IMG/VR virus record: IMGVR_UViG_3300040960_001862
Span: 1 to 23,447 of that record
Source of the DNA: a virus
Length of the DNA: 23,447 nucleotides
Direction: 5' to 3' (one strand)
How positions within the stretch are numbered: the stretch's first letter is position 1; each line of letters begins with the position of its first letter. A model generated the notes under the pieces. The model was given only the letters and a program-made list of their open reading frames with translations, did no database searches and was not told where the DNA came from. Made by a program: the position numbers and the translations under genes. Shown piece after piece: positions 1 to 6,268 of the stretch.

Positions 1-1653
1 TTAACGATTTCCAATCAAGTGATCACGGCTGGAGTGGTTCCGGTTTCCCTCGGTGGCACAGGCTCTACGACTGCTTCGGGAGCAAGGACTGCACTTGGGG
101 TTTCAATTGGGTCTGATGTCCAAGCATATGATGCAGGACTCAACGATATTTCTTCTTTAGCCGTAACAGATGGCAACATCATCGTAGGAGACGGAAGTAA
201 TTGGGTAGCGGAGTCTGGTTCAACAGCCAGAGCATCACTAGGGGTCACTATCGGATCTCAGGTCCAGGCTTGGGACCAACAGTTAGACGATATCAGTGCT
301 CTCGCAGTAACAGACGGAAATATTATTGTTGGTAATGGAACTACCTGGGTAGCGGAATCGGGTGCTACGGCTAGAGCGTCTCTGGGTTTGACCATCGGTA
401 CTGATGTCGAAGCGTACAGTTCCACCAATGCAGATTATTCAGATACCACAGCAAACTTCACGGGGACATTACAAAACGGTGGTTCCAACGTAGTTGTAGA
501 CAGTGATATTGGTTCCTCGGTTCAAGCCTATGATGCAGACACTGCAAAGTATGACGATACAACAGCCAATTTTACCGGAACCCTCCAGAACGGAGGGAGT
601 AACGTTGTTGTTGATTCAGACATCGGATCTTCGGTCCAAGGGTATGACGCTGACACGGCTAAGTACGATGACACCACAGCAAACTTTACGGGGACTCTCC
701 AGAATGGGGGGTCTAATGTAGTGGTCGATTCAGACATCGGATCTACGGTTCAAGCCTATGATGCGGATTTATCTACAATCGCAGGACTGTCGAGTGCGGA
801 TGGGAACTTCATTGTTGGGTCTGCAACCGGATGGGTAGTCGAGTCTGGAGCAACCGTAAGAACTTCTCTCGGATTAGCTATCGGAACGGATGTACAAGCC
901 TATGATGCGGACACCGCAAAGTACGATGACACTACAGCTAATTTCACAGGCACACTCCAAAATGGTGGATCAAACGTTCTTGTTGACTCAGATATTGGAA
1001 GCACAGTTCAAGCGGCAGGTTCGTACCTAACTTCAGTTGATTTAACTTCTAACGTCACAGGGACTCTTCCTGTAGCTAACGGAGGAACTGGAGTTACTTC
1101 TTTAGCATCACTGAATGCTGCTGATCTTGGATCGAATAATGGGGTGTCTAACGCTACAGACGGATATGTTCTGACTGCCGATGGGACAGGTGGCGTTGCG
1201 TGGGAAGCGGCAACAGGTGGATCAGCAATCAGTAATGTGGTTGAAGATTTAAGTCCGCAGCTCGGTGGGAACCTGGATGTCAATGGGCAGTCCATCGTTT
1301 CGGTTTCAGCAGGGAACATCGCAATTACACCGGACACCACAGGCAAAATAATTCTTGACGGACTTTCGTGGCCCACGGCAGACGGGACTGCAGATCAGGT
1401 ATTAAAGACCGATGGTGCTGGCAATCTCAGCTTTGTGGATCAGTCAGGAGGTGGTGGCTCTGGCAGTTACATCGAACACGCAAACAGTATCAGTGACAGC
1501 GTCACCGTAGCATCCGGTAATAATCGACTCTATATCGGAGACACCACGTTTAGCGGAACTCTGACGATTGAAGGTAAATTAGTTTCTATCGATGGTCCGT
1601 TTAATTTAACGGGAACGGCAAACATAACAGGAACCCTTTCAGTGAGACACTAA
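1..1653 (+). CDS. Tail fibre/stalk protein, 5' end outside the window (partial)
   Basis: The frame is open from base 1; the GTG at 19 is only the first start-like codon inside the window, so the gene is taken as truncated on the left. The visible part (about 550 aa) is low in charge, rich in Gly/Thr/Ser/Ala/Asp and built of repeats. One class ends in motifs such as GGTGSTTASGARTALGV and SGATARASLGL; another carries DTTANFTGTLQNGGSNVVVD. Such repeats are typical of trimeric tail fibre stalks in marine phages. There is no TM segment, no signal peptide and no recognisable enzyme motif. The likely role is a host-contact fibre stalk outside the virion. The stop overlaps the next fibre gene by 1 nt (TAATG), suggesting coupled translation. 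Fibre is well supported by composition; the receptor and exact position in the tail are unknown. Confidence 0.82.
   Translation, partial: LTISNQVITAGVVPVSLGGTGSTTASGARTALGVSIGSDVQAYDAGLNDISSLAVTDGNIIVGDGSNWVAESGSTARASLGVTIGSQVQAWDQQLDDISALAVTDGNIIVGNGTTWVAESGATARASLGLTIGTDVEAYSSTNADYSDTTANFTGTLQNGGSNVVVDSDIGSSVQAYDADTAKYDDTTANFTGTLQNGGSNVVVDSDIGSSVQGYDADTAKYDDTTANFTGTLQNGGSNVVVDSDIGSTVQAYDADLSTIAGLSSADGNFIVGSATGWVVESGATVRTSLGLAIGTDVQAYDADTAKYDDTTANFTGTLQNGGSNVLVDSDIGSTVQAAGSYLTSVDLTSNVTGTLPVANGGTGVTSLASLNAADLGSNNGVSNATDGYVLTADGTGGVAWEAATGGSAISNVVEDLSPQLGGNLDVNGQSIVSVSAGNIAITPDTTGKIILDGLSWPTADGTADQVLKTDGAGNLSFVDQSGGGGSGSYIEHANSISDSVTVASGNNRLYIGDTTFSGTLTIEGKLVSIDGPFNLTGTANITGTLSVRH
421..1017 (+). 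repeat. Protein-level repeats in the tail fibre, heavily recoded at the DNA level
   Basis: Units of 38 codons start at about 421, 535, 649 and 907, with one divergent 48-codon unit at 763-906 in between. Units at 535-648 and 649-762 encode 36 of 38 identical residues, yet 23 of 38 codons differ and 21 of those changes are synonymous (counted by hand). One block of six codons (gat tca gac atc gga tct) is identical in the two units. Unit boundaries are approximate, since the repeat could be phased elsewhere. Confidence 0.88.
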
Positions 1654-2885: not shown

Positions 2886-3193
2886 AACTTCTACTGATCT
2901 TTTTTCTGTTTCTGGCAACGGTTGCTAAAGCTCACGAAGAACTCGATTACAAAACCCATTACTTATTTATGTGGACAGGGAACTGTACGAATAGATTGAT
3001 CCCCACTTACGAACAGAAGGGAGTCCCGTGGAACTTTGCGTTTTCGATGGCTAGCCAGGGTTGCTCCTGTGTGATCGATAAATTTAGAGAACAGTATAGC
3101 CAAACAGAAGTCATGTCTTTGACGGATGCAGAACGAGAAGAACGATCACTCTATTTCGCTCAAGTCTGTAGCGGAATCACCAAGGAGATGTAA
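2882..3193 (+). CDS. Secreted cysteine-containing protein in the lysis cassette
   Basis: 103 aa. The N-terminus is a textbook Sec signal peptide (KLLLIFFLFLATVAKA) with a likely cleavage after AKA at residue 17, leaving about 86 periplasmic residues. Four Cys follow (in GNCT, GCSC and QVCSG), enough for two disulfides. There is no lipobox, so it is not an Rz1-type lipoprotein by sequence. It sits between the holin candidate and the endolysin with ATGA overlap upstream and TAATG overlap downstream. Possible roles are a periplasmic lysis regulator, antiholin-like factor or superinfection-exclusion protein; the family was not recognised. Gene reality is well supported, function is not. Confidence 0.7.
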   Translation: MKLLLIFFLFLATVAKAHEELDYKTHYLFMWTGNCTNRLIPTYEQKGVPWNFAFSMASQGCSCVIDKFREQYSQTEVMSLTDAEREERSLYFAQVCSGITKEM

Positions 3194-3312
3194 TGGAAGA
3201 ACTATTCAATCTAGCACTTGATACGGGATTTCTGGAAATGGGTCTGGTTGCCCTCGGTGCTCCAGCAGGACTCGTCTTCGGAGTCAAAATGTTCAAACGG
3301 ATGAAGAAATGA
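3193..3312 (+). CDS. 39-aa membrane peptide, possible small holin/pinholin partner
   Basis: Found by manual translation. The ATG overlaps the upstream TAA by one base and its TGA overlaps the endolysin start (ATGA), so it sits exactly between two coupled genes. It begins MEELFNLALDTGF, has a hydrophobic segment at about residues 13-31 (FLEMGLVALGAPAGLVFGV) and ends in a strongly basic tail (KMFKRMKK). The positive C-terminus predicts an N-out/C-in orientation. Position directly before the endolysin makes a holin or holin-modulating role plausible. Conservation of the perfectly spaced reading frame is the main evidence that it is real. Confidence 0.6.
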   Translation: MEELFNLALDTGFLEMGLVALGAPAGLVFGVKMFKRMKK

Positions 3313-3692
3313 TCGAAACTCGAAACTTCAAACATAGAGAACTCAGTTGTAATTGCTGTGGTGGCAATCAGATGAACGTGGCTTTCTTAGAAAAACTACA
3401 GTTGATCCGAGATGAATATCAACAACCGATGGTCATTAGTTCTGCCTACCGATGTCCACGATATAACGATGAGATTTCATCCACTGGACCCACTGGACCA
3501 CATACGACAGGAAGAGCCGTAGACATTCTGATCTACGGTCAGGAAGCCTATGATCTTATGAAACTTTGTCTCAAGTACGGAATGACTGGACTCGGATTCA
3601 AGATGGCTGGACCGAGGAGTACTAGGTTTCTTCACTGTGACGATTTAACCAATACTGCGAAGTCTCCCCGTCCCTGGATCTGGTCTTACTGA
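3309..3692 (+). CDS. Endolysin: peptidase M15 family (D-Ala-D-Ala carboxypeptidase-like)
   Basis: 127 aa, the usual length of single-domain phage M15_3 endolysins. The zinc-site pattern is visible: H65 in GPHTTGRAVDI, D72 seven residues later, and the downstream H109 in RFLHCDD. The substrate-side motif SAYRCPRYND at about 45-54 also matches the family. It should cleave peptidoglycan stem-peptide crosslinks in the periplasm. It has no signal peptide, so release depends on the holin gene(s) just upstream. A Cys-rich patch near the N-terminus (SCNCCGG, residues 13-19) is typical of this subgroup. Its 3' end overlaps the convergent integrase gene by 7 nt. Confidence 0.88.
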   Translation: MIETRNFKHRELSCNCCGGNQMNVAFLEKLQLIRDEYQQPMVISSAYRCPRYNDEISSTGPTGPHTTGRAVDILIYGQEAYDLMKLCLKYGMTGLGFKMAGPRSTRFLHCDDLTNTAKSPRPWIWSY

Positions 3693-4639
3693 TCTTTCTG
3701 TACTAGCTGTAACAGTTTATCTAACTTTTCCTCTAACGACTGAAAATCCGTGTGTCGCAGGTTCGATTCCCGCTCTGGCCACTTCATCGTTTTTGTAACA
3801 TCCTCTGTATCCTCTCTGTAAATTCCTAACGAATTCACTAATTCTTGTAGCGGCAAATGAGTCGTATTCAGATAGAGTTCTGTAGTCGATAATCGCTCAT
3901 GTCGTAGCAGATGTTGCACGTGTACTGGGTTCATGTTTCCGGACAATAGTTCAGTAGCAACAGAAGCTCTATAACCATGGAGTGGTTTCGGTCCATCTAA
4001 ATCGATAGACTTCTGAAACTTTCTCATCGAATACGTGAGATGACTCAGTTCTTTAAAATGGTGATCCAAGTAATTAGTTTCCCCCTCATGTTTTTCGATC
4101 TGTAAAAACTCCAGTAGCTTCGGATGTATCGGGAGAATGGAGTCTTGTTTATTCTTTGTCGTCCAATCCTCTTTTCCTTCGATACGGATTCCAGATCCGA
4201 TATCTGACCAATTCAAATGAAAAAGTTCTCCTGCTCGCATTCCGGTATATCTGAGCATGTAATGAGTTCTCCGAAGAATTTGATATCTCCGTGATCGTTG
4301 TGCTCTATGATTAAGAATGGTTTCGATGATCTCCAGTTGATGAGTTGTCCAGACCTTCGGGATCTTTTTGTTCAGTTTCAGCATCGGCACATGATACTTC
4401 GGATGATTCAGATATTTATGACACCAGTTCAAATACGCTTTCAAAGATCGTAGATGAGAATTGATTGACCCATCGGATAGACCTTCAGACCGGAGATGAT
4501 CTACGTAGTCCTTAAAAGTTTCGTAAGTAATGGAATCGGATGTCGAGAAGGCTTGCCATCGGGCTAATTGAGGTCGATAGGTATCAACAGTCCTCTGAGA
4601 ACGATAGGTCCGTAGATAGTCCAAATATTGATCAATCAT
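3686..4639 (-). CDS. int: Tyrosine-family integrase
   Basis: 317 aa. The N-terminal SAM-like core-binding domain spans about residues 1-85, with the catalytic domain after it. Active-site residues are R135 (YTGMRAGEL), a Lys in WTTKNKQ (K162 or K164), H221 and R224 (LHGYRAS), H247 (LLRHERL) and Y256 (TTELYLN). All catalytic elements are intact, so it should carry out attP x attB recombination. Residues 287-300 (WPERESNLRHTDFQ) are the antisense translation of the tRNA-Phe-like attP core, and the last 17 residues are a Leu-rich amphipathic tail. It is downstream of the repressor with a 4-nt overlap (start 4639, repressor stop at 4636), so it is translationally coupled to it. It converges with the endolysin. 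Confidence 0.93.
   Translation of the reverse strand: MIDQYLDYLRTYRSQRTVDTYRPQLARWQAFSTSDSITYETFKDYVDHLRSEGLSDGSINSHLRSLKAYLNWCHKYLNHPKYHVPMLKLNKKIPKVWTTHQLEIIETILNHRAQRSRRYQILRRTHYMLRYTGMRAGELFHLNWSDIGSGIRIEGKEDWTTKNKQDSILPIHPKLLEFLQIEKHEGETNYLDHHFKELSHLTYSMRKFQKSIDLDGPKPLHGYRASVATELLSGNMNPVHVQHLLRHERLSTTELYLNTTHLPLQELVNSLGIYREDTEDVTKTMKWPERESNLRHTDFQSLEEKLDKLLQLVQKDQ
3738..3782 (+). other. attP: attP core: 3' half of a tRNA-Phe gene, inside the integrase ORF
   Basis: Read on the plus strand, these bases match a tRNA from the anticodon loop to the discriminator base. The loop is CTGAAAA at 3740-3746 with anticodon GAA (Phe). A five-base variable loop (GTGTC) follows, then the T arm with TTCGATT at 3762-3768 and the acceptor strand TCTGGCCA ending at 3781. 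No 5' half (acceptor 5' strand, D arm) is present upstream, so this is not a functional tRNA gene. The T stem has one A-C mismatch (GCAGG against CCCGC). An orphan tRNA 3' half beside a tyrosine integrase is the classical attP signature. Confidence 0.82.
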
Positions 4640-5244
4640 AGTGCTTTCACCAATCTGACTACTCTTCCAACGATGACGAACCCGTCACTATCATCAGCCG
4701 TAATCGTGAGATCTTTGTAGATCGGATTATCAGAAACAATCCGGTATTCATCCTGAGCTACCCGTTGCACTCGTTTGACATGTAGTGATTCCCAGAGTCT
4801 CAGAACGTAGACTCCGTCACCAAGAAAGCCACTGTTCATATGAACCAGAATGGTATCTCCGGAACCCATCAAAGGACTCATGCTGTCACCGACTACGGTA
4901 ATGAAGGCTAAGTTCTGATCTGGTAGCTTCGGTAGCCACTCGGTAATCACAGAAATTGTTTCTCCGTTTTCATCGGTAGTCAGAGTCCCTGCTCCACCAC
5001 TTGCCTCTGTATCAAACTTTCGGATCAGCCGATAGTTGTCATCTCTGATCACTTCTTCCGTTTTGACCTCATCTATATTTCCAAAGACCTGTTCTATTCG
5101 GCTCAGAAAGTAGGATGAATCCTGTTTTCCTTGAAGAACTCGGTTCACTTTAGATCGATCCCATCCAATGGCATCTGCTATCTCTTGTTGAGAATATCCC
5201 TGGGACTTCCGCCACAGATCGAACTTTTCTAAAATTTTTTGCAC
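4636..5244 (-). CDS. LexA/CI-like self-cleaving repressor (HTH + S24 peptidase)
   Basis: 202 aa from a GTG start at 5244. The N-terminal HTH covers about residues 8-55 (SQQEIADAIGWDRSKVNRVL). The C-terminal S24 domain has the nucleophile S121 in VVGDSMSPLMGSGD and the general base K158 in HVKRV. A candidate cleavage site is A85-G86 in SGGAGTL. LexA of E. coli uses A84-G85, S119 and K156, so the geometry is nearly the same. It should repress the divergent early promoter in lysogens and be inactivated by RecA-stimulated self-cleavage during DNA damage. The start has only a loosely spaced GGAG upstream, about 11 nt away. It heads an operon with the integrase. Confidence 0.92.
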   Translation of the reverse strand: MQKILEKFDLWRKSQGYSQQEIADAIGWDRSKVNRVLQGKQDSSYFLSRIEQVFGNIDEVKTEEVIRDDNYRLIRKFDTEASGGAGTLTTDENGETISVITEWLPKLPDQNLAFITVVGDSMSPLMGSGDTILVHMNSGFLGDGVYVLRLWESLHVKRVQRVAQDEYRIVSDNPIYKDLTITADDSDGFVIVGRVVRLVKAL

Positions 5245-5332
5245 TTTCTTGTTGACTCCATAAATCTTTTCTGATCAGATATGCACTCCGATGCACAGAG
5301 TGAACGGTTAACGGTTACAAACATGGAGTCAA
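5245..5332 (+). promoter_or_regulatory. Divergent repressor/early-operon control region with inverted repeat arms
   Basis: This 88-nt gap separates the leftward repressor from the rightward early operon, so it must hold both promoters. A perfect 10-bp inverted repeat flanks it: TTGACTCCAT at 5252-5261 and ATGGAGTCAA at 5323-5332. The right arm supplies the GGAG Shine-Dalgarno of the gene at 5333; the left arm could also serve as a -35 (TTGACT). Inside are the palindrome CTGATCAG (5271-5278), ATGCAC repeated at 5281 and 5291, and a tandem AACGGTTA at 5303-5310 and 5310-5317. Operator assignment is inferred; no convincing -10 could be fixed. Confidence 0.6.
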
Positions 5333-6268
5333 ATGCAAGATACCAACCTTTTAAACACCACTCAGGCAGCTAAGGCTCTAGGGGTCTCTGTGGATCAGAT
5401 ACGAAGAATGATCAGTAATGGTCAGATCAAGAGTATCCAGACTCACGATAGATCCCCCCATTTAATCCCCACTGCAGAAATCCTCCGGAACACAGTGATC
5501 AAACCGAGAAGTTCAAGAATGAGCTTCGATGAATACTGCGAACTGGATGGACTGAATGCGTCTCTGATCAAAAGACTGAACAAGTCTCTGAACCATTACC
5601 TCTCTACTCCGTCAGATCCGTCTCCAGCCATGGCAAAGGGAACCGCCATTCATGACAGCATTGAACTGCGACTAGCCGGAAAATCTTTCGGTGACAAGTA
5701 CGTGATAGCGCCCAATGTGGACAGAAGGACGAAAGCAGGACGAGAGGAATACGATCAGTTTGTAGCAGAAGAAAAAAGAACGGTACTGAAGAAAGAAGAT
5801 TACGAAGACGTAGTTCTGATGACCGAGTCGGTTTTCAGACATCCTGAGTTCTGGAGAATCATTCCGAATGCAGAAGTAGAACAGGTGATCACCTGGGAAG
5901 AGAACGGTATCCGAGCAAAAGCGAGACTTGATTACAGTGACGAGGGACAGCACCTCGTTGTGGATCTGAAGAGTGCTCAGGACGCTTCACCCTACGGATT
6001 CAAAAAAGCAGTCACACGGTATCAATACGACATTCAAGCCAACTGGTATCGAAGAGCCTATCAATCTGTTTCCGGTCACTATCCGGAGTTTTTATTTTTA
6101 GTAGTCGAAAACACAGCACCCTACAACGTGGCCTTGTACAAACTATCCGATGAATTGATGCACAACGCAGAGTTCAAGATCAATCAAGCAGTCGAATTAT
6201 ACAAACAGTATCTCTCCGGAGAGATCTATAGCCAGGGATACCATGAGGACGTAATGGAGTTGTCATGA
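5333..6268 (+). CDS. Excisionase-like HTH fused to RecE-type PDDEXK exonuclease
   Basis: 311 aa, ATG at 5333 with GGAG five bases upstream. Residues about 7-52 form a MerR/excisionase-type winged HTH (TTQAAKALGVSVDQIRRMI). From about 64 on it matches the RecE C-terminal/DUF3799 nuclease layout: GTAIHDSIE (H107), RAKARLDY (D200), VVDLKSAQD (D211, K213) and the trailing helix YQYDIQANWY (Y232, Q235). The nuclease would resect 5' strands of duplex ends to feed the ERF annealing protein encoded at 7381. It is the first gene of the early operon. No separate xis gene is seen, so the HTH may supply an excisionase or regulatory function; that part is inference. Stop and next start overlap by 4 nt. 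Confidence 0.82.
   Translation: MQDTNLLNTTQAAKALGVSVDQIRRMISNGQIKSIQTHDRSPHLIPTAEILRNTVIKPRSSRMSFDEYCELDGLNASLIKRLNKSLNHYLSTPSDPSPAMAKGTAIHDSIELRLAGKSFGDKYVIAPNVDRRTKAGREEYDQFVAEEKRTVLKKEDYEDVVLMTESVFRHPEFWRIIPNAEVEQVITWEENGIRAKARLDYSDEGQHLVVDLKSAQDASPYGFKKAVTRYQYDIQANWYRRAYQSVSGHYPEFLFLVVENTAPYNVALYKLSDELMHNAEFKINQAVELYKQYLSGEIYSQGYHEDVMELS

Follow-up and report, generated by a model that had tools for sequence, protein, structure and literature searches.

A putative tRNA-Phe attachment core within the integrase gene of a podovirus-like phage and the predicted exchange of the integrase tail

Does the attachment site of this phage lie within its integrase gene (int), and what would integration then make of the integrase (Int)? 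The window, which means the whole 23,447-base stretch of DNA analyzed here, is an IMG/VR-type viral record, and the phage is described as marine, temperate, and podovirus-like. The features around int are listed in Table 1. The reading that we prefer, with a probability of roughly 0.6, is that the attP core is located in the 3' end of int and that integration swaps a conserved, probably helical tail of the enzyme, likely stabilizing the prophage.

Table 1. Features in and around the integrase gene of the window
Feature	Position	Strand	Basis
Tyrosine integrase, 317 aa, attP (free-phage) form	3686..4639	-	ORF; PF00589 E=6.8e-12; PF02899; PHROG 1 integrase
LexA/CI-like repressor, HTH + peptidase S24	4636..5244	-	PF00717; PHROG 4
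M15 peptidase, likely endolysin, convergent to int	3309..3692	+	PF08291; ORF coordinates
Putative attP core: tRNA-Phe(GAA) 3' half, anticodon stem to discriminator base	3738..3782	+	tRNA match
Variable linker, Int residues 272-286, between body and core	3782..3826	-	Alignment; polymorphism counts
Int tail codons, from the third base of S301 through Q317 + stop; predicted to be lost on integration	3686..3737	-	Coding constraint

Position of the core in the integrase gene

The bases at 3738-3781 are identical (44/44) to the 3' half of a tRNA-Phe(GAA) gene in the MAG contig CAJXNF010000111 of an uncultured proteobacterium (L021 hereafter). Base 3782 also agrees with the L021 gene, giving 45/45 over 3738-3782. 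This gene is the sole exact match to the core in a search that covered 84,980 species genomes, and chance is therefore excluded. An earlier interpretation made from the letters of the window (the sequence-only reading) had recognized a tRNA-Phe 3' half here, and the match to L021 bears it out. The core had also been said to encode Int residues of about 286-300 in the antisense direction. That it is coding is confirmed, whereas the exact residues in the Int frame are 287-301, WPERESNLRHTDFQS.

The Phage_integrase Pfam domain covers Int residues 122-259, with the SAM-like domain on its N-terminal side, and the Pfam matches of Int are limited to PF00589, PF02899, and PF13102. The invariant catalytic-type residues R135, K162, H221, R224, H247, and Y256, which we take to be catalytic from general knowledge of the family, are all located upstream of the core, and the alignment thus agrees with the earlier claim that the catalytic residues through Y256 precede it. 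The window contains only one copy of the core, with none in the repressor gene, and no arm-type repeats were found around the core in the window. The comparisons support 3738-3782 as the attP core for a tRNA-Phe gene, situated inside int and past all the catalytic residues.

The genes next to int should also be noted. The end of the M15 peptidase gene and the int stop share 7 nt. The first rightward gene, at 5333-6268 (+), encodes an N-terminal HTH_17 domain fused to a DUF3799/exonuclease VIII-like domain. The HTH_17 fold is common to excisionases, and the product may combine a recombination directionality factor with a nuclease. A similar N-terminus occurs in L024 and L034, two less closely related phages described below. 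At the left end of the window, a gene at 19-1653 (+) encodes a putative tail-fiber protein with repeated segments of the VQAYDADTAKYDDTTANFTGTLQNGGSNVVVDSDIGS type.

Conservation of the core and of the tail beyond it

IMG/VR was searched with the integrase and with the core. The search gave 19 close loci with identities of 91-99%, two of which are the opposite ends of one contig, as well as L024 and L034, whose integrases are ~62% identical to that of the window. The core and its reading frame are unchanged in each of the 20 related contigs that span it, L024 and L034 included (21 sequences with the window). Between the window clade and L024/L034, synonymous sites are saturated in the Int body, whereas the core is identical. 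The sole difference over the core codons between the two clades is the third base of the last codon, which is outside the core. In a relative of 37,108 bases, a 99-bp exact terminal repeat lies inside int, and the genome therefore closes across a full-length int. Three contigs from two samples (L018, L019, and L020) share their exact start base, ~54 bp past the core and beside a variable site, which probably marks a point where strain variation broke the assembly.

The invariance of the core bears on whether the tRNA half is a relic with the true attP elsewhere. A tRNA half need not adjoin int, since two contigs (L022 and L031) carry the core of the window ~11 kb from their integrase. In the family of the window, however, the core is invariant in spite of synonymous saturation, adjoins int, and exactly matches a host tRNA gene that resembles an integration hotspot. 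We regard a relic as very improbable. L022 and L031 are unrelated phages, one of which has a gene for a 2540-aa protein, and their 44-bp tRNA-Phe half lies in a gap and is followed by a host-like CCAGTA.

The last 17 codons of int encode SLEEKLDKLLQLVQKDQ, as the sequence-only reading had stated, and their separation from the gene by integration, also claimed there, follows from the position of the core inside int. Between the two clades, pN/pS is 0.20-0.56 over the 13 aligned tail codons, compared with 0.31-0.34 in the body. The changes in the tail are mostly synonymous or conservative, with the second codon position altered in only 1-2 of the 13 codons. The probability of so few second-position changes in an unconstrained tail evolving at the third-position rate of the body (~0.63) is ~6e-4 or less, where the pairs compared are non-independent. 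The frame of the tail is unbroken in 21/21 sequences, and it is preserved in L024/L034 although the linker ahead of the core is 27 nt shorter there in the alignment. Within the window clade alone the constraint is less clear, with 5 synonymous and 5 nonsynonymous variants. The synonymous sites of the tail are saturated between the clades, which argues against the tail DNA being kept for binding sites. Judging from these substitutions, the tail evolves as protein, under purifying selection. This conservation means that the tail matters in the free phage, and not that its loss is regulatory.

The tail is predicted to form an amphipathic helix, LEEKLDKLLQLVQ. Its helical hydrophobic moment is significant in the window and in one relative (L013), and is not significant in L024/L034. 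An AlphaFold model of Int places a helix at residues 299-312, with low confidence (mean pLDDT 55), and is taken as a hint only.

Homologous integrases with identities of 25-44% stop short of the core, near residue 271-277. One of them, L048 at 44% identity, stops before the 3' half of a tRNA-Arg gene; in its host genome (G013), the degenerate Int relative at L048:2076-2495 has an antisense tRNA-Arg(TCT) 3' half behind it. The L048 tRNA-Arg(TCT) half suggests that the lineage of this integrase has switched its target. Ten viral contigs (L112-L121) have a tRNA-Phe core of the native type, and nine of these have an integrase, 24-29% identical to that of the window; none was seen in L114 among the ten examined. 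The int gene crosses the core in none of them, and the core lies ~90 bp to 2.8 kb past the aligned Int end. In most of the ten, the native-type tRNA-Phe half is flanked by GATTGAAATT-like repeats. Since the less similar integrases end before the core, the fusion of int and the core looks like a derived trait of this family, one that would not be needed for the use of tRNA-Phe.

A derived fusion may be an incidental overlap, in which an int stop just before the core was lost and the ORF ran on through the tRNA half, which has no stop in any of its three antisense frames; the swap would then occur with no regulatory role, and the lysogen tail would be tolerated. The ends of the homologues at ~271-277 fit such an origin, as do the cores of L116 and L118, phages with the same tRNA gene target, at ~90-100 bp past the aligned Int end. 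So does the linker, which is weakly conserved by polymorphism counts. Purifying selection at the protein level on the post-core tail, unbroken in 21 sequences, nevertheless counts against an incidental overlap, which we consider rather unlikely.

Host locus and the predicted lysogen form

Protein identities of 95% and 91% to the congeners G014 and G011, respectively, place the L021 contig in its clade. Among chromosomes, this small host phylum also holds the best relatives of the integrase. In three host genomes (G001, G011, and G012), the DNA to the left of tRNA-Phe shows 83-88% identity over 1.46 kb, while that to the right is unrelated. The host tRNA-Phe gene therefore looks like an integration hotspot in these alignments. 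Its T arm is GGTGGTTCRATTCCACC in seven other genomes, and the phage-type GCAGGTTCGATTCCCGC is found in G001 alone. The 3' half in G001 either came in with an element that uses this att or is a native host allele. In the former case, the crossover would lie in the anticodon arm. In a comparison of L099:1632-1707 with L097:1556-1631, the T arm of one host equals that of the phage core, including an A51-C63 mismatch, whereas the arm is fully paired in seven relatives. One host tRNA-Phe 3' half is possibly phage-donated.

We constructed an attL in silico by joining the left flank and the tRNA 5' half of L021 to the phage core and the int body. The Int encoded there has 311 aa, ending ...DFQSVALPTELSGR and the stop codon (also given as ...WPERESNLRHTDFQSVALPTELSGR). 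In this reading, 10 new codons are followed by a TAG just outside the L021 tRNA gene, so that integration at L021 is predicted to exchange the last 16 Int residues for about 10 others. With ten other tRNA-Phe copies from the same phylum, the predicted tail is 12-34 residues when counted from S301, mostly with an SVALPTELSG start. The expectation that the prophage int would read on with no early stop thus fails for the best-matching host, L021, and holds in part for the other hosts. Two forms of Int would exist, a free-phage form of 317 aa and a lysogen form of 311 aa.

No lysogen with this int was found by integrase or alignment searches in 52 host-phylum genomes and 192 relatives, and these searches yielded only the degenerate L048. 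Likewise, no viral contig with a whole tRNA-Phe beside the core was found. Every core-bearing contig of the int family is in the attP form, and the L021 MAG has no related int.

In the explanation that we prefer, a crossover at the anticodon arm of the host gene for tRNA-Phe, the point that we infer, would rebuild the tRNA. Int residues 302-317 would be replaced by VALPTELSG, read antisense from the 5' half of the tRNA and followed by a few residues that depend on the host, and int would thus exist in two forms, as in the myxophage Mx8 system discussed below. The full-length Int would integrate efficiently, the prophage form would be weaker or altered, stabilizing the prophage, and excision would return the full-length int. 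Like the crossover point, the lysogen form of the gene and the change in Int activity after the swap are inferred.

The predicted attL also permits an explanation by position, in which Int in the prophage is limited by transcription of tRNA-Phe head-on into int instead of by the altered tail. The tRNA and int read toward each other in the predicted attL, and no terminator-like site was found in 3000-5700 of the window. Silencing of this kind leaves the conservation of the tail unexplained, and it is unlikely to be the principal cause; it is compatible with the tail swap, and both can hold.

Coupling to the repressor and comparison with known systems

The stop of the repressor gene and the start of int share 4 nt (ATGA), and this overlap is kept in 12/12 window-clade loci tested. 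In L024 and L034, an 11-nt overlap is observed between int and a regulator gene. Gene overlaps such as ATGA point to co-translation. The overlap suggests that Int is co-translated with the repressor and is hence probably made in lysogens, which would be a reason for a weakened prophage form of Int. The altered tail could restrain Int in lysogens. A wider reading is a lysogeny switch that resets itself: the repressor and Int would be coupled in translation, the full-length Int would integrate, integration would weaken or redirect Int via a tail supplied by the antisense strand of the host tRNA-Phe, and the repressor would continue to be expressed with no excision. The swap would then be a control of directionality, with the conserved tail as the switching part. 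We offer this as a tentative possibility, with the odds against it.

The locus is a clear example, conserved among phages of an uncultured lineage, in which integration is predicted to rewrite the integrase itself. It adds comparative evidence that the removable Int tail is under selection, and the overlap of int with the repressor gene suggests a reason for a lysogen to need an altered Int. The locus also calls for caution, since the C-termini of prophage integrases may not be the phage's own.

The idea is less new than the sequence-only reading implied. An attP in int with a C-terminal swap is already published for Mx8, in which integration gives int a new 3' end and the changed enzyme is altered, not inactivated (PMC6070905). 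Islander describes the Mx8 and SSV integrases as extending across attP. Judging from the published description, the window resembles Mx8 (and Mx9) in having an att core that falls within the int ORF, past the codon for the catalytic tyrosine; the identity of the window core to the chromosomal tRNA-Phe of L021 is a likeness of the same type. Mx8 and the window phage are unrelated, however: the latter is podovirus-like, targets tRNA-Phe, has an int overlapping the repressor gene, and has a lysogen form that is predicted only.

The Burkholderia phage phiX216/phi52237 has its attP in the int 3' end and integrates at tRNA-Phe, as a sequenced lysogen junction confirms (PMC3548686). The attP in the int 3' end at tRNA-Phe is the likeness, whereas phiX216 is a P2-like (subgroup A) myovirus, unlike the window phage.

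The genes for the suicidal, SSV-type integrases of archaea also contain the site of recombination, and they are split into inactive fragments by integration (PMC8371274). In the window Int, by contrast, the catalytic residues 135-256 stay together and the tail alone would be exchanged. Assignment to the SSV type was rejected, as the core comes after all the catalytic residues and Int has no Phage_integr_3 domain (PF16795).

In the mycobacteriophage BPs, attP is in the repressor gene, the virion and prophage C-termini differ, and the repressor gene and int are co-transcribed (PMC4557955). An attP within a coding gene that gives two protein C-termini is common to BPs and the window phage. Integration-dependent immunity like that of BPs was rejected from the positions of the core (3738-3782) and the repressor gene (4636-5244): attP lies in the repressor gene in BPs, whereas in the window phage it lies in int and leaves the repressor untouched.
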